Part shown: positions 53,518 through 60,738 of the stretch, piece by piece | How positions within the stretch are numbered: position 1 is the stretch's first letter | Layout: the number at the start of each line of letters is the position of its first letter | Assembly (NCBI GenBank): GCA_009780135.1 | Contig: WRAP01000004.1 | Location: forward strand, 1 to 64,000 | From: Bacillota bacterium | GTDB taxonomy: Bacteria; Bacillota; Clostridia; Christensenellales; Pumilibacteraceae | Direction: 5' to 3' | DNA: 64,000 bases | Program-made: the position numbers and the translations under genes | Notes under the pieces: generated by a model | What the model saw: the letters and a program-made list of their open reading frames with translations, nothing else | Database searches by the model: none | What the model was told of the DNA's origin: nothing

Positions 53518-54981
53518 TCACCCCGTCAAATTGCCCGCTTTTAGTAACGAATAAATACACTCACTTAACTGCCTTGGCGGAACGGTTTCTATACGCACAA
53601 CCCTAGCACCTCTTATATAAAGATTGCCTCTAACGGGAACAAAATCACTGCCTTTATAAATTTTGGCAGACTTTAGAGTAAGCGTTTGGTCTTCGATACT
53701 AAAATCTGTCGGAGTAAATTCTAAAACTATACTGTATTCGCCTAAAAAGTAAGAAGCGTACTCATATAGCCCGCTAACCTCACCAAAAACCAGCTTAAAA
53801 TTATGTTCTTTTAGATGTTGCTTAAATAGACACGCATTTACAACCGTACCACTAACCCTTTTAATTTCGTTAGAAACCTTTTCTAAATCGGTAGCAAAAT
53901 AAGACGGACGCCTAATTTGTAAAATCGGTTGTTCGTTAAGATTCAAATTTTTAAGATACGAGCATTTTGTAGGTATCTCAATCGGATGCAAAACACCTAT
54001 GCTACAACTTTCACTCAATTCAATCGGACAATTATCTAAATTACAAACCGTCTCGCCTTCTACAACAATAATATCAACCAAAGCATCGTTTTCATATACG
54101 CTAAAAAATAAATCGTTAGCTAATTTATTAAACTCTACATCAATTTTAATTCTTTCTAAAAATTCACTGCACACTAAAGTTTTGCCGTCAGTTAAACAAC
54201 ATTCTAATTCTTCTAAAGCAGTTTGCGGAGGCTTTTGAGGCTTAGCTTTATCTCTATCGTTATGAGAATTAATGAGTCCTCTAATAAAAGCATTGGGGTC
54301 AGTATCTTGAACTCTTTCTAAAAACTTTTCGCATTCTGTTTCGGTTTTGTAAAGTAACGCAAGCCTAACAATCGCTTCTCTTTTTCTAGTGTCCCCATTA
54401 GCATAACTATCGCCAAAGAGATAATTTATATCAATTTTATTAGCAATCAGTAGCTTTCTTATAGCAGATTTATTAAGACCAGCACCATAAAGTAGCTTAT
54501 CAATAAGTATAACAGCACTTCTAGCTATATCGGCTTTAACTAATACGCCAAAAGCAGTAAACGATGGGTCTAACTCTATAAGTAATTTAGCAACTCCAAA
54601 AAAATCACCCTCTGCTCTTTTTAGAATATAAGCTGTTGCACCCTTTTGCCAAACCGATAGCATACTATCGCCGATAAAGCTTTCTACCGCCACTTTCATA
54701 ACTGTATTGCTATCTAAGTTAGCCACTTCCGCTAGTTCTAAAAATAAATTAAAATACCCCGAATCTAGGTCGTGAAGACCTAAACTAGAAGTTATAAAAT
54801 CCTTAGGCTCGGGGCTGACATACCCGTGCTTTAATGCCTTAAAAAGTGAGACAAATGAAGTGTCAGTAAGTAATTTATGTAAAAAAACACTTGCTGTATC
54901 TAAATTAAACTCGGTGGCGAAAAACTGCTTCCCGAGCCTATCGGCATCGATAACAGTAACAAATTTTGCTTCTTTTTGCAT
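53518..54981 (-). CDS. cytosolic protein, C-terminus DUF4132-like
   Basis: A 487-aa protein. I prefer the ATG at 54981 because AAGGA lies 6 nt before it; an in-frame ATG at 55008 has no such site. Residues 1-270 look all-helical, perhaps HEAT-like. The C-terminal half (IGVLHPIEIP, then QPILQIRRPSYFATDLE, ending VRIETVPPRQLSECIYSLL) resembles the DUF4132 domain, a likeness I hold with moderate doubt. No signal or membrane segment. Function unknown. Confidence 0.6.
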   Translation of the reverse strand: MQKEAKFVTVIDADRLGKQFFATEFNLDTASVFLHKLLTDTSFVSLFKALKHGYVSPEPKDFITSSLGLHDLDSGYFNLFLELAEVANLDSNTVMKVAVESFIGDSMLSVWQKGATAYILKRAEGDFFGVAKLLIELDPSFTAFGVLVKADIARSAVILIDKLLYGAGLNKSAIRKLLIANKIDINYLFGDSYANGDTRKREAIVRLALLYKTETECEKFLERVQDTDPNAFIRGLINSHNDRDKAKPQKPPQTALEELECCLTDGKTLVCSEFLERIKIDVEFNKLANDLFFSVYENDALVDIIVVEGETVCNLDNCPIELSESCSIGVLHPIEIPTKCSYLKNLNLNEQPILQIRRPSYFATDLEKVSNEIKRVSGTVVNACLFKQHLKEHNFKLVFGEVSGLYEYASYFLGEYSIVLEFTPTDFSIEDQTLTLKSAKIYKGSDFVPVRGNLYIRGARVVRIETVPPRQLSECIYSLLKAGNLTG

Positions 54982-55160
54982 TATTTCCTTTTCGCCTTTT
55001 TCTATCATACTAAATAAAATCCACTAAACATCCAAAAACAAAAAAACAGTCCATTGTGAACCGCTTTTATATAATAAGATTGTACCATATCAGTATCTTT
55101 AAGGCAACCTCTTTTTATAAAATTTTTAGGACTAATTTTAATGTTGTTTGAAAAAAATCG

Positions 55161-55219
55161 TTTGACAGTCAAATTGCTTTTTTGTTAAACTAAAAAATAG
55201 TTTGGCAATCAAACTATTT
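55161..55219 (+). promoter_or_regulatory. degV-marR promoter with two FabT-like operators
   Basis: Promoter TTGACA (55162-55167), 18-nt spacer, TAAACT (55186-55191). Operator 1 (TTTGACAGTCAAA, 55161-55173) covers the -35. Operator 2 is a 10-bp-arm palindrome (AAATAGTTTG, GCAAT, CAAACTATTT; 55195-55219) just after the -10. Both share TTTG-N5-CAAA, the core of the FabT site known from streptococci. A MarR protein is encoded downstream. Confidence 0.8.
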
Positions 55220-55235
55220 CTTAGGAGAATATATC

Positions 55236-56135
55236 ATGACAAAATTTATTATTTCAACAGATAGTTGTGCTGACTATCTAAAAAGCGAAATGAACGAGCA
55301 AAACATTTATTGCCTTCCTATAAAAAGGATTCACGGCGATAAAGTATACGAAGAACTTTATGACAAACCCGAAGAATTCGATGAATTTTATGAGGGTGTA
55401 AAAAGCGGGAAATTATCTTCCACTTCGCAAACCAATCCAGAGGAATTTTTGGAATATTTTAATGCTCTCCTTAGCGAAGAATCCGAGGGCGATATAATTC
55501 ATATAACACTATCTAGCGGAATATCAGGTACATATAACAGTGCTGTGCTGGCTAGTAACGAAATAAACGAAAAACTAACTAATCGCAAAATCTACATAGT
55601 GGATAGCCTGATGGCTACAGTTGGGCAAATGATGCTCGTAGAAAAGTTACTAGAATTAAACGGTACAATAGATTCTGGTAAAGCAATAAAAATTGTAGAG
55701 GAAATGCGTAATAATCAGCAGGCATTCTTTATGGTGGACGATCTTAACCATCTTAAAAGAGGCGGTAGAATTAGTGCTACAAAAGCATTGCTTGGAACTA
55801 TTTTGGGAGTTAAACCAATTCTTACATTTAATAAGCAAGGTAAAATTGTCCCTTGTGAAAAAGCTAAAGGCAACATAAAGGCTATTAAAACCATTTTAGA
55901 ACTAGCCGAAAAACACAAAGACCCTCAAAATGCTGATTTTTCTAAAGAAACTGCGTATATTGTAAGAACTTCTAAAAGCGACTCATACGAAAATCTTAAA
56001 ACTGCTGTAATAAACGCTTATCCTAATATCAATTTAAAAGAAGTTATTGTAGGTCCTGTTGTTGGCACTCATTTAGGTTGTGGCGGTATCGGTTTTGTAT
56101 TTATTGGTAAACCTAGGTTAGATCTTGCTCAGTGA
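55236..56135 (+). CDS. DegV-family (FakB-type) fatty-acid-binding protein
   Basis: DegV proteins bind a fatty acid; some (FakB) present it to the kinase FakA for phosphorylation. 299 aa, two-domain fold: FIISTDSCADY at the start, SSTSQTNPEEF (ligand Ser/Thr loop), ITLSSGISGTYNSA, and DDLNHLKRGGRISATKA. AGGAG precedes the ATG. It heads an operon with a MarR regulator under FabT-like operators, which supports a lipid role. fakA is not in the window. Confidence 0.93.
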   Translation: MTKFIISTDSCADYLKSEMNEQNIYCLPIKRIHGDKVYEELYDKPEEFDEFYEGVKSGKLSSTSQTNPEEFLEYFNALLSEESEGDIIHITLSSGISGTYNSAVLASNEINEKLTNRKIYIVDSLMATVGQMMLVEKLLELNGTIDSGKAIKIVEEMRNNQQAFFMVDDLNHLKRGGRISATKALLGTILGVKPILTFNKQGKIVPCEKAKGNIKAIKTILELAEKHKDPQNADFSKETAYIVRTSKSDSYENLKTAVINAYPNINLKEVIVGPVVGTHLGCGGIGFVFIGKPRLDLAQ

Positions 56136-56186
56136 ACAAAAGAGAAGGGTGAGATAAGTGTTGATTGTGAGCTTCTTAACGATTTT

Positions 56187-56597
56187 ATGGTAGATACTTT
56201 TTACTCTATTTTACACGAGGAGGAGCGGGCATTAGAGCACCTTTCTAACGGCAAACTGACGCTAAAAGAAATTCATCTCATTGAAGCCGTCTATAAAGAA
56301 GAACAAAAAAGCAATAATACTTTTTCGGGTGTGGCAAATAATTTAAGGATTAGTCTTGGCACACTCACCGAAGCTTATAAAAAGCTAGAAAAAAAAGGCT
56401 ATCTTACTAAAAAGCAAGATAAATACGACAAAAGGGTTTATTACATTATGCCTACTCCAATTGCTCTACTTATAAATGACGAGCATACAAAATGGCACAA
56501 ATCACTTATAGATGCTATGATAAAAACAATCCCTGAAAATGATTTGCCAAATTTTATCTTAGCAATAAAAAATCTGAGGGACTTTTTTAGGCAATAA
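56187..56597 (+). CDS. MarR-family regulator, FabT-like
   Basis: Winged-helix repressor, 136 aa from the only ATG. The wHTH runs about 25-95 (LTLKEIHLIEAVY, then RISLGTLTEAYKKLEKKGYLTKK, wing YDKRVYYIMPT), with dimer helices at both ends. FabT proteins usually carry about ten more residues before the equivalent of MVDTF. Here the same frame is open for 17 codons back to the DegV stop and encodes fitting sequence (CELLNDF), but holds no ATG, GTG or TTG. The site GAAGGGTGAG lies there. The true start may be non-canonical. Likely represses this operon and perhaps lipid genes. Confidence 0.85.
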   Translation: MVDTFYSILHEEERALEHLSNGKLTLKEIHLIEAVYKEEQKSNNTFSGVANNLRISLGTLTEAYKKLEKKGYLTKKQDKYDKRVYYIMPTPIALLINDEHTKWHKSLIDAMIKTIPENDLPNFILAIKNLRDFFRQ

Positions 56598-56612
56598 GAA
56601 ATCAACAATGAG

Positions 56613-56716
56613 CAATGAGGGAAATGAGAAATTAAGGACTTATAAACATATATCAAATAAAATTAAGTATTTAAGTATTTATAATTAAAACACAATAATT
56701 TCTCATTCGCCTCATT
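56613..56716. repeat. imperfect inverted word arms before the pflB promoter
   Basis: AATGAGGGAAATGAGAAATT (from 56614) and AATTTCTCATTCGCCTCATT (from 56698) pair with two mismatches in about 23. They use the word ATGAGAAAT seen in the yidC-jag repeat. Confidence 0.6.
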
Positions 56717-56743
56717 TCTAATTTCTCATTGAATTTCCCTATT

Positions 56744-56772
56744 GACAACCATTCCTTACTACTATATACTAT
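56744..56772 (+). promoter_or_regulatory. sigma-A promoter of pflB
   Basis: TTGACA (56744-56749), 17-nt spacer, TATACT (56767-56772). Start near 56779, leader about 33 nt with AGGAG before the ATG. Confidence 0.8.
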
Positions 56773-56811
56773 CAACTGTAGACAACTTATTTAGAATTTT
56801 TAGGAGAATTT

Positions 56812-59076
56812 ATGATTATGGCAAAAGCAACAAATACAAATCAAACGCTCTTCCCTATGTGGGAAGGCTTTAATGAAGGCTCGTGGCAAAAAGAAATTGA
56901 TGTGCGAGATTTTATTCAAAAAAATTATACGCCTTATATCGGCGGTGATGAGTTTTTATCCCCTATTTCAAAAAAATCTGAAGTTCTTCTAAAAAAATAC
57001 GAAGACTTACTTTTAGAAGAAAAAAAGAGAGGCGGAGTTTATGATATAGACACCGAAAATATTGCCTCTCTTCTTAGCTTTAAGCCGGGATATCTGGATA
57101 AAGAAAACGAGGAAATTGTAGGCTTTCAAACAGACCATCCGCTAAAACGCATTGTAAATCCGTTCGGCGGAATGCGTATGGCAAAATCGGCTTGTGAAGC
57201 ATACGGATACACTATTTCTCCTAACATCGAAAATATTTTTAATTATAAAACCACTCATAACGACGGTGTTTTTAGAGTATATACTCAAGAAATGCTCAAA
57301 CTTCGTAAAAGTGGGATTCTAACGGGACTACCCGATGCGTACGGCAGAGGCAGGATTATCGGCGATTATCGCCGTGTTGCTCTATACGGTGTAGATATGC
57401 TGGTAGAACATAAAAATAAAGATTTTTTAGAGCTAGAAAAAGGCGATATGGACGAAGGTAAAATTCGTTTACGAGAGGATATTCACCGCCAAACTGCCTT
57501 TTTAAAAAAATTAAAAGGAATGGCTGAAATGTACGGACACGATATATCTAAGCCTGCTACTACCGCTAAAGAAGCAATTCAATGGACATATTATGCTTAT
57601 TTAGGTGCAATTAAAGAACAAAACGGTGCCGCTATGAGCTTAGGACGGGTTAGCACATTCTTAGATATTTATATCGAAAAAGATATTAAAGCCGGTATAA
57701 TTACAGAACTAGAGGCACAAGAGCTTATCGACCAATTTGTATTAAAGCTAAGAATGGCACGCCAATTAAGAACTCCCGACTATAACGAACTATTCGCAGG
57801 CGACCCAACATGGGTAACCGAGGCAATCGGCGGTACAGGTACAGACGGAAGAACTCTTGTAACCCGTACTTCTTTTAGGTTTATGCACTCACTTTATAAT
57901 CTAAAGCCTGCTCCAGAGCCTAACATCACAGTGCTATGGGCACAAGATTTGCCTGAGAATTTTAAGACTTATTGCTCTAAGGTTTCAATCGAAACCTCTA
58001 GTATTCAGTACGAAAACGATGATTTGATGCGTCCCGTATACGGCGACGATTACGGCATTTCTTGTTGCGTTTCTGCCATGACGCTAGGTAAACAAATGCA
58101 ATACTTTGGTGCTAGATGTAATTTAGCTAAGTTATTATTGGTTGCTTTGAACGGCGGAAGAGACGAGCTTACAGGCGAAAGTGTAGGGCTTGATATGGAA
58201 CCAATAAATAGTGGCAAATTAGACTATGATGTTGTGCTAAAACGCTATCTTAAATATATCGATTGGCTTGCTAAAGCGTATGTAAATACAATGAATGTAA
58301 TTCATTATATGCACGACAAATACGCTTACGAAAAATTGCAAATGAGCCTTCACGATACTGTAGTAGAAAGGCTTATGGCTTTTGGAATTGCAGGTCTTTC
58401 AGTTTGCGCAGATAGCTTAAGTGCCATAAAATATGCGTCAGTTACTCCTATAGTAGACGAAACAGGTTTAATCACAGAATATAAAACCGAAGGCGAATTT
58501 CCAAAATTCGGTAATGATGACTGCCGAGTGGACGACATCGCCGCTTATCTTGTAAAATATTTCTACGAGGAACTTATTAAAACTAAGGCATATCGAGAAA
58601 GCGTTCATACCCTTAGTATTCTTACAATTACCTCTAATGTAATGTATGGTTTAAAAACAGGTAGCACACCCTGTGGTCGCAAAAGTGGAGAAGCATTTGC
58701 CCCGGGTGCTAATCCCCTACACAACCGAGAAAAGCACGGAGCGCTGGCCAGTCTTAATTCAGTTGCAAAACTTGATTACAAATATTGCCGAGACGGAATC
58801 TCTAACACCTTTAATGTTTCGCCAAGCTACTTAGGCAAAAACAACGCAACAGTACAGAAGAATTTGTCTACAATCCTAGACGGCTATTTCCGTAGTGGCG
58901 GACATCATCTAAACATAAATGTTTTCGATAGAGAAACTCTGTTAGAAGCACATAAAGTTCCCGAAAAATTCCCATTCTTAACAATCCGAGTATCAGGCTA
59001 TGCCGTAAAATTCGGAGTATTAAGCACAAAGCATAGACAAGAAGTATTAGATAGAACTTTCTTTGATAAAGGATAA
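56812..59076 (+). CDS. pflB: formate C-acetyltransferase (pyruvate formate-lyase)
   Basis: Glycyl-radical enzyme splitting pyruvate into acetyl-CoA and formate during anaerobic fermentation. 754 aa, normal. The catalytic Cys pair is in [13 protein letters not shown] and the radical glycine in VSGYAVKF near the C-terminus. [20 protein letters not shown] and [16 protein letters not shown] are typical. Strong promoter and AGGAG site. Its activase gene lies 0.95 kb further, beyond a regulator and a small gene. Confidence 0.97.
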
Positions 59077-59105
59077 ACTAGATTTATATTGAAATTGATG
59101 AATAA

Positions 59106-59143
59106 AAAAATGGATGCTGATAGATTTATCAACATCCATTTTT
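59106..59143. terminator. terminator between pflB and the XRE gene
   Basis: AAAAATGGATGCTGAT (59106-59121) pairs with ATCAACATCCATTTTT (59128-59143) with one mismatch; T-run on both sides. Confidence 0.85.
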
Positions 59144-59152
59144 CTTAGGATT

Positions 59153-59596
59153 CTACTCTCTGCCTACTAGATAGTCTAGTGAGCAATCGAGAGCTTCGGA
59201 AATTCTTAGTAGGCTATCAAGGCTTGGTTCACTTACGCCGTTAATCCAGTTATAATAATTACCTGTATTCATTTTTGTTTTTCTACTTAATCCATACAAT
59301 GTAAATCCTTTTGCTTCTACTGCACTACGAAACCACTCCGAAAATGGCGGACGCTGTTTAGGTGCTGTTAAATAATTTTCTTGTTCTATTCCTAATAAAA
59401 ATTCTAAAGAGCATTTAAAATAATCTGCAAGTTTTATAAGATTATAAACAGACGGCACAAAATTTATTTTACCTGTAAGCCAATCATAAATACTTTTTTC
59501 GCTACAACTAATATTTTGACTTAATTTTTTTACAGTAATATTGTTTTCAAAGATAAGTTCTTTTAGCCTTTCGCTAAATTGTGCTATAGTATCCAT
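59153..59596 (-). CDS. DNA-binding protein with two tandem XRE-type HTH domains
   Basis: A 147-aa repressor-like protein with two Cro/C1-type domains: residues about 5-70 (KKLSQNISCSEKSIYDWLTGK) and 83-147 (LYGLSRKTKMNTGNYYNWINGV), each ending with the same motif (CSLEFLLG, CSLDYLVG). No other domain. It lies divergent to a small gene, with a shared inverted-repeat operator. Likely autorepressor; could act like the antitoxin half of a pair (speculative). Confidence 0.85.
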   Translation of the reverse strand: MDTIAQFSERLKELIFENNITVKKLSQNISCSEKSIYDWLTGKINFVPSVYNLIKLADYFKCSLEFLLGIEQENYLTAPKQRPPFSEWFRSAVEAKGFTLYGLSRKTKMNTGNYYNWINGVSEPSLDSLLRISEALDCSLDYLVGRE

Positions 59597-59620
59597 TTTT
59601 TCGACAACCTCTTACAAAAT

Positions 59621-59677
59621 ATACTACCTCGACTTTCTTATAAATTATTGACTTTGAGAAAGTTAGGGTAGTATAAT
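59621..59677. promoter_or_regulatory. operator and promoter between the XRE gene and small gene
   Basis: 20-bp arms (59621-59640 and 59655-59674) match in 16 of 20 positions as inverted repeat: ATACTACC and ACTTTCT blocks, 14-nt spacer. Within it lies a rightward promoter TTGACT (59648-59653), 18 nt, TATAAT (59672-59677). A leftward TATATT (59618-59623) touches the other arm. Confidence 0.75.
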
Positions 59678-59731
59678 TATATCAACAGCTTCCCCATATA
59701 TAGTTGTTAATATACTAAGGAGGTTAATCAA

Positions 59732-59914
59732 ATGAAGAATGAAATAAAATACATTAGAGATGAAATGCTAAAGAACTTAAAAAACAACAAAGAATTTGAA
59801 AATACAGTTGTAGCAGAAATTGACGGCTGTAATGTAGCAATAGCAGACATCGCACTACCGGCTACTAATAATCAAAATCAAGTTTACCGTTTAATAATTA
59901 TTAAACATAACTAA
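59732..59914 (+). CDS. small protein of unknown function
   Basis: A 60-aa acidic/basic mixed protein (MKNEIKYIRDEMLKNLKNNK at the start) with a strong AAGGAGG nine nt before the ATG and its own regulated promoter, so it is very probably expressed. A helical N half is followed by a beta-like end (NQVYRLIIIKHN). No family recognised. Divergent from the double-HTH gene, inserted between pflB and pflA. Confidence 0.7.
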   Translation: MKNEIKYIRDEMLKNLKNNKEFENTVVAEIDGCNVAIADIALPATNNQNQVYRLIIIKHN

Positions 59915-59988
59915 AAAACTGTACTACATAATTATTCTCAAATAATAATAGGTTTAATAAACTCATAATTGGTTGTACGTTAATAAAT

Positions 59989-60018
59989 TTGACATTATTG
60001 GTTACAATATGCTATACT
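59989..60018 (+). promoter_or_regulatory. sigma-A promoter of pflA, nearly leaderless
   Basis: TTGACA (59989-59994), 18-nt spacer, TATACT (60013-60018). The ATG at 60031 follows after 12 nt and no ribosome-binding site is seen. Confidence 0.7.
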
Positions 60019-60030
60019 GATATTGTAATT

Positions 60031-60738
60031 ATGGCTATCAAAAAACCTACACAACTTTCATTAAATGTCGCTTCTATCGAAACGCTGGGGACGCTTGATG
60101 GTCCGGGGCTACGAACCATTATATTTTTTAAAGGCTGTCCGCTTAGATGTAAATACTGCCATAATGCTGATATGTTGTCTTTTGAGGGTGGGGAAAAATG
60201 GACAATTGATAGTTTAGTAACAAAATGTATTAAATATAAAAATTTCTACGGAGAGAATGGCGGGGTTACACTTAGCGGCGGCGAGCCGTTGACACAGCAA
60301 TCCCCCTCTCTTGTGCTACTTATAAAGGAATTGCAAAAAAAAGATATTCATGTAGTGTTAGATACATCGGGTTTTCCATTTAGCGAAGAAGTTTTGTCAG
60401 TGGTTGATTTAGTTATTTTAGATGTAAAGCACACCGATAAAGAGGCTTACTTAGATTTAGTAGGTGTGCCGATTGATGATTGTTTAAAATCGTTAGAATA
60501 TCTTAAAAAAATCGGCAAACCATTTTGGGTGCGTCAAGTAATTGTAGAGGGGATAACTGATAATGTAACTCAAATTTTAAAATTAAAAGAACTCGCACAG
60601 GGTGCCGAAAAAATAGAACTACTAGCATATCATAAAATGGGTGTAAATAAGTGGAAAACTTTGGGACTAAAATATCCATTGGAAAATATACCAGCAACAA
60701 GTAAAAAAACTATGGACAAGCTAAATGCGTTGTTATAA
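60031..60738 (+). CDS. pflA: pyruvate formate-lyase activating enzyme
   Basis: Radical-SAM enzyme that places the glycyl radical on PflB. 235 aa from ATG 60031. The reading frame stays open to a TTG at 59989, but that TTG is the -35 box of its promoter, so it is not the start. The cluster motif is GCPLRCKYCHN; SIETLGTLDGPGLRTIIFFKG before it and LSGGEPLTQ after it are standard. Separate promoter from pflB. Confidence 0.95.
   Translation: MAIKKPTQLSLNVASIETLGTLDGPGLRTIIFFKGCPLRCKYCHNADMLSFEGGEKWTIDSLVTKCIKYKNFYGENGGVTLSGGEPLTQQSPSLVLLIKELQKKDIHVVLDTSGFPFSEEVLSVVDLVILDVKHTDKEAYLDLVGVPIDDCLKSLEYLKKIGKPFWVRQVIVEGITDNVTQILKLKELAQGAEKIELLAYHKMGVNKWKTLGLKYPLENIPATSKKTMDKLNALL

Follow-up and report, generated by a model that had tools for sequence, protein, structure and literature searches.

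FabT, a repressor of the MarR family, is encoded by the first gene of the fab operon in enterococci, streptococci and lactococci, and its ligand, acyl-acyl carrier protein (acyl-ACP), strengthens its binding; in Enterococcus faecalis, fakAB lies outside the FabT regulon (PMC13046290, PMC9083066). In Streptococcus pyogenes, the degV gene fakB4 is controlled by FabT via a box located between the transcript start and the start codon, and its product has no effect on the uptake of exogenous fatty acids (PMC10138225). The link between FabT and DegV proteins is thus already known. Here we describe a degV-marR operon in the first 64,000 nt of contig WRAP01000004.1 of a Pumilibacteraceae bacterium (hereafter the window, i.e., the whole stretch analysed). 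The source genome is a 1.58 Mb draft, 84% complete, and the genomes used for comparison are also incomplete. We consider it probable that this operon combines a FakB-type carrier with a FabT-like repressor acting on the two palindromes of its own promoter, with acyl-ACP as the signal by analogy with FabT.

The regulator resembles FabT of streptococci, enterococci and lactococci in its profile family, its best fold match, its GT-x-T recognition helix, the TTTG...CAAA box at its own promoter and its probable autoregulation, but its gene follows degV with no fab gene adjacent and it falls under the FabT equivalog cut-off. As for fakB4 of S. pyogenes, a degV gene here has a FabT box near its promoter; in S. 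pyogenes, however, fabT is located elsewhere, in the fab operon, and there is a single box, whereas in the window the regulator belongs to the degV operon and there are two boxes. The literature open to search (mostly without subscription papers) yielded no account of a dedicated DegV-paired FabT branch, of tandem operators or of boxes divided between branches.

Operators and proteins of the degV-marR operon

Exact pattern matching recovered the two TTTG-N5-CAAA palindromes reported in an earlier note on this DNA (Table 1), so that two boxes of the TTTGA...TCAAA type known from the promoter of fabT itself lie upstream of the operon. The same note had them flanking the core promoter, which is nearly but not exactly the case: operator 1 contains the predicted -35 hexamer (55162-55167), and operator 2 starts 10 nt past the predicted -10 element (55186-55191; 10/12 consensus bases in all) and probably covers the transcription start. 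The likeness of the second palindrome to the FabT site was borne out, since AGTTTGGCAATCAAACT (site 2) is identical to the published consensus ANTTTGATTATCAAATT (PMC10138225) at 12 of the 16 fixed bases, including the TTTG...TCAAA core. The degV and marR open reading frames were also recovered as the note described them. There was no Rfam match to an RNA element within 54900-56900. A CRP/FNR-type site was considered and rejected, because the half-sites are spaced here as TTGA-N3-TCAA and those of CRP/FNR as TTGA-N6-TCAA.

The bare motif is too common to be interpreted alone, and it is the tight tandem pair that is unusual. TTTG-N5-CAAA was about as frequent as expected by chance in the window (4 sites versus 3.16) and in modest excess over the whole genome (101 versus 67 for the reversed control pattern). 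The tandem pattern, with 23-30 bp between sites, occurred once in the source genome with no control match, and 14 times over 61 genomes with two control matches. The tight pattern TTTGRYNRYCAAA had 8 sites genome-wide versus 3 for the control, the six besides the operon pair being all inside open reading frames. A looser scan with a degenerate 19-bp box (3 mismatches) gave 23 matches versus 18 for the control, and operator 2, with one mismatch to TAGTTTGANNNTCAAACTA, was the best match of the genome.

The open frame of marR extends back to 56136, and alignments with homologs begin at about 56160. FabT (NF050133) was the best NCBIfam family for its product (E = 5.4e-23, 81.8 bits, residues 15-151 of the 56136 frame; next family 39.6). 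The score misses the curated equivalog cut-off of 200, which appears strict since it was passed by none of the genomes of the order and by none of the control genomes, Lactococcus lactis included. In the PDB, pneumococcal FabT (6jbx) came first in a single-sequence search (3.5e-14 versus 2.7e-7 for the next entry), and FabT also came first in a sequence-profile search whose profile included a row of pneumococcal FabT (E 9e-53 versus 1e-16). The AlphaFold model is a confident winged helix-turn-helix (predicted local distance difference test, pLDDT, 91), and its best fold matches were both chains of the pneumococcal FabT-DNA complex 6jbx (template modelling (TM) scores 0.82 and 0.79, E 6.6e-8); the best MarR protein after them reached only E 1.1e-6 and TM 0.56. 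Both by sequence profile and by fold, the protein groups with FabT and not with other MarR subfamilies.

The product of degV has the fold and family membership of FakB proteins (PF02645, PDB DegV), its nearest PDB relatives being DegV and FakB1 chains (PDB DegV E = 8.8e-37). Its Thr, Ser and His motifs may correspond to the carboxylate site of FakB1, the fatty-acid-binding subunit of fatty acid kinase, which in the Staphylococcus aureus protein comprises Thr62, Ser95, Ser171 and His270 (PMC8892158); the candidate residues T63, S93/S97 and H279 are conserved in a local alignment. The partner FakA (YloV; TIGR03599, 611.8 bits, above cut-off, C1:376220) is encoded in the source genome, as are PlsX, FabF, FabH and ACP, and PlsX was found in all genomes checked. 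On the other hand, the protein scores 152 against the FakB1 model (E = 1.4e-44), under the equivalog cut-off of 350, and fatty-acid binding is a prediction from its sequence. It is a real possibility that its role, like that of S. pyogenes FakB4, lies in the storage or detoxification of endogenous or surplus fatty acids and not in uptake, as the FabT-regulated S. pyogenes DegV is without effect on exogenous fatty-acid incorporation (PMC10138225); FakA and PlsX are present here, and the sequence does not separate the two roles.

For a carrier coupled to a FabT-like repressor, the reading that we prefer, regulation could proceed as follows. The repressor, probably a dimer, would bind both palindromes of the operon's own promoter, where occupancy of operator 1 would hide the -35 hexamer and occupancy of operator 2 would cover the transcription start. 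RNA polymerase would then be blocked and both DegV and the repressor itself lowered, which would amount to autoregulation. The signal, by analogy with FabT, would be long-chain acyl-ACP made from fatty acids, and carrier production would fall when the acyl supply is high.

Promoter design and boxes in the family

MarR homologs with 40-47% identity were present in five other genomes of the family. Pairs of boxes 38-41 bp apart were found at the DegV promoter in G007 and at the promoter of a ygjV-like gene and degV in G017 and G029, and G002 has a single box at its degV-marR promoter. In these four genomes and in the window, operator 1 reads TTTGACA..., the -35 hexamer being part of the operator. 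The same design precedes acpP-fabK-fabD-fabG-fabF in G007 (box AGTTTGACATTCAAACT), and fatty-acid synthesis and DegV appear to share one box type in this genome of the same family.

Over 74 genomes of the family, the box AGTTTGANNNTCAAACT (at most one mismatch) occurred 3-7 times per genome in the six that encode the regulator versus about 0.4 times per genome elsewhere (an average counted from the tabulated sites). Among the genes near these sites are DegV genes (two more in G002, and those of G017 and G029), acyltransferase genes of PF01553 (G029 and G014) and, in G014, a ygjV-like gene. When all DegV genes of 17 genomes were counted, a box (at most 2 mismatches, at most 400 bp upstream) was present for 8/23 where the regulator is present versus 1/45 where it is not (Fisher p = 4.6e-4, a test that, like those below, ignores relatedness between genomes), the ygjV-degV operons of G017 and G029 being outside the 8. 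Shuffled upstream regions had the box in 10/2300. The single exception is G001, of the same genus as the window, where two TTAGTTTGACAAACAAATT sites 38 bp apart precede DegV-FabK-FabZ-YgjV (L082:6018-6068) and where the FabT-like protein, with 30% identity to that of the window, belongs to another class (see below) and is encoded elsewhere in the genome. As far as boxes indicate, regulon size varies among relatives and the DegV promoter is the most constant member.

Some features of these operons were observed in passing. Several box-controlled operons (L044:8700-9791, L082:8388-9263, L134:4296-5126) encode a YgjV-like membrane protein (weak PF10688 match), in two cases along with DegV, and this protein could have a lipid-linked function. 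The fab operons of G014 and G003 have a DegV gene in last position, after accA (L081:11832-12677, L085:4726-5532). At the start of contig C194 of G002 (L130:12-28), a perfect box is followed by transposase genes resembling an IS21-type pair, perhaps an insertion allele beside the box.

Two classes of FabT-like proteins in the order

The FabT profile was run against 297 genomes of the order, and gene context and boxes were then compared. The FabT-like proteins formed two main groups, besides a small third one whose seven members mostly lie near acc genes. Class A (18 proteins, including that of the window) mostly has the recognition helix [x]GTLT; class B (24 proteins) comprises related MarR proteins, such as that of G001, mostly with an LP[ST]xT helix, whose genes adjoin fabH and/or acp and head fabH-acp-fabK operons, with no DegV within 2.6 kb. 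A DegV neighbour was found for 13/18 class A versus 0/24 class B proteins (Fisher p 3e-7), and an exact TTTGN5CAAA within 250 bp of the start for 11/18 versus 0/24 (p 7e-6). Conversely, TTAGN9CTAA was present for none of the 18 class A and 12 of the 24 class B proteins (p 3e-4); this palindrome (e.g., TTAGATAGTCTAACTAA), a second type of FabT box, precedes class B genes at L047, L048, L052, L216, L221, L222 and L236. G059, G138 and G345 each have one regulator of either class.

Class A was recovered as one branch with supports of 83/82 with outgroups and 63/57 without, and class B with 98/97 in the second tree. Pneumococcal FabT has an LGTVT helix as in class A and a fab-operon location as in class B. 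The best tree places it by class B (support 53/40), and its joining class A had a p value of 0.517 in the approximately unbiased test (p-AU). We thus use the name FabT-like and not FabT, since the tree leaves pneumococcal FabT without a firm class. As to the tree comparison proposed in the earlier note, profile, tree and predicted fold agree on the FabT-like identity of the regulator, and the p-AU given above applies to its placement with streptococcal FabT. The idea of a carrier-repressor unit in place of the fab cluster is supported: the regulator is linked to DegV, and many related genomes show the same pairing and the same type of box, with autoregulation predicted from the position of the sites.

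We tentatively suggest that a separate DegV-paired FabT branch exists across the order beside a fab-operon branch with another box, so that carriers and synthesis would be under two FabT paralogs, and that the DegV-paired branch alone may run lipid control in some members without de novo synthesis. FabT is known as a repressor of synthesis encoded in the operon that it controls, and a carrier-coupled branch differs from this; it suggests that one type of sensor was redirected from synthesis to the supply of carriers, its recognition helix and its DNA box having changed to match. Two FabT paralogs in one cell offer a testable comparison, and the pairing gives a clue to what the numerous DegV paralogs still uncharacterised in gut Bacillota may do.

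Weighing of alternatives and integrity of the module

Several observations weigh against the proposed regulation, besides the relatedness left out of the Fisher tests. The source genome has no second convincing intergenic site, the other matches examined being intragenic or weak with 3 mismatches and not beside recognisable lipid genes (five of the 23 were left out: C6, C8:27736, C9, C13 and C22). No convincing box precedes fabF/accB/fabZ (C10) or fabH/acp (C1) of this genome, in which fabD, fabG and fabK were not located. FabT is encoded within the fab operon and controls it; marR is not adjacent to fab genes. The earlier note had asked whether further sites cluster before fatty-acid synthesis genes and took the absence of any further site genome-wide as refuting its proposal, an outcome to which the source genome comes close. 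This absence is nevertheless outweighed, because sister genomes carry sites before DegV, fab and acyltransferase genes.

The same observations bear on the idea that the regulator controls DegV but senses a signal other than acyl-ACP (for example an acyl phosphate, a free fatty acid or the DegV protein) and acts as a local DegV regulator and not as a FabT. This seems to us rather unlikely. It would agree with the restriction of convincing sites in the source genome to the DegV operon, with the situation in G002, G017 and G029, which encode the regulator and have boxes at DegV genes while a search for FabF (the one fatty-acid-synthesis gene tested) gave no match, and with the score under the equivalog cut-off; it agrees poorly with the boxes before the fab genes of G007 and the acyltransferase genes of G029 and G014, with ACP in the source genome and with PlsX in all genomes checked.

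Other points against a working FabT-like repressor concern the protein itself, which may not be made, or not be intact, in this strain. The codon at 56160 is GTT, whereas G014 has ATG-Asp-Cys and G007 has GTG-Asp at this place, and the marR frame contains no ATG, GTG or TTG between the degV stop (56133-56135) and ATG 56187. A start at ATG 56187 would cost about seven residues of helix 1 in the AlphaFold model, and a GTG in another frame, at 56158, begins a stretch of 11 codons ending over this ATG. The GTT codon could reflect mutational loss of the start, a misassembly or coupled re-initiation. Read-through of the degV TGA into a DegV-MarR fusion, both genes being in the same frame, was rejected, because TGA ends other long frames (6/38 long stop-ended frames in the window) and the genes of relatives are separate. 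The protein is also on a long branch (end branch 0.92), with the recognition helix LGTLTEAYKKL versus LGTLTTSFSRL in its sisters. Together with the three mismatches of operator 1 to the 19-bp box, all in outer positions, the long branch and the GTT would suit a module decaying in this lineage, with its start codon lost, its sites weaker and its repressor no longer working. We consider such decay improbable, as the rest of the frame is open, the helix predictions have high confidence and operator 2 remains intact, and as a misassembly or re-initiation from ATG 56187 would also explain the GTT.

Finally, that the palindromes are a chance AT-rich symmetry around the -35 hexamer would suit the chance-level count of the bare motif but is extremely improbable, being largely refuted by comparative data, in which the tandem is conserved in other genera and co-occurs with the regulator.

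Table 1. Features of the degV-marR locus (positions in the window).
Feature	Position	Strand	Evidence and remarks
Operator 1	55161..55173	no strand	TTTGACAGTCAAA; overlaps -35 hexamer; same TTGACA placement in relatives' promoters
Predicted core promoter	55162..55191	+	TTGACA, 18-nt spacer, TG-TAAACT; consensus scan
Operator 2	55201..55213	no strand	TTTGGCAATCAAA inside TAGTTTGGCAATCAAACTA; 40 bp downstream of operator 1
Shine-Dalgarno AGGAG of degV	55223..55227	+	sequence
DegV/FakB-type (putative) fatty-acid-binding protein, 299 amino acids	55236..56135	+	PF02645 E = 2.6e-67; TIGR00762 E = 1.8e-67
Shine-Dalgarno-like AGAAGGGTGAG before marR	56143..56153	+	sequence
FabT-like MarR regulator	56187..56597 from in-frame ATG	+	NF050133 FabT profile, alignment, fold match to 6jbx

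The surroundings of the module were read by eye in the window, where putative genes for pyruvate formate-lyase and its activating enzyme adjoin it (56812-60738), and in G002, where a similar activase-like gene stands beside degV-marR (L041:1716-2309). In G007 (L045:6896-9920), the divergent operon next to the box-controlled DegV gene encodes DUF2229 and BcrAD_BadFG proteins, which are related to coenzyme A (CoA) dehydratase activases; the FabT-like gene comes next.
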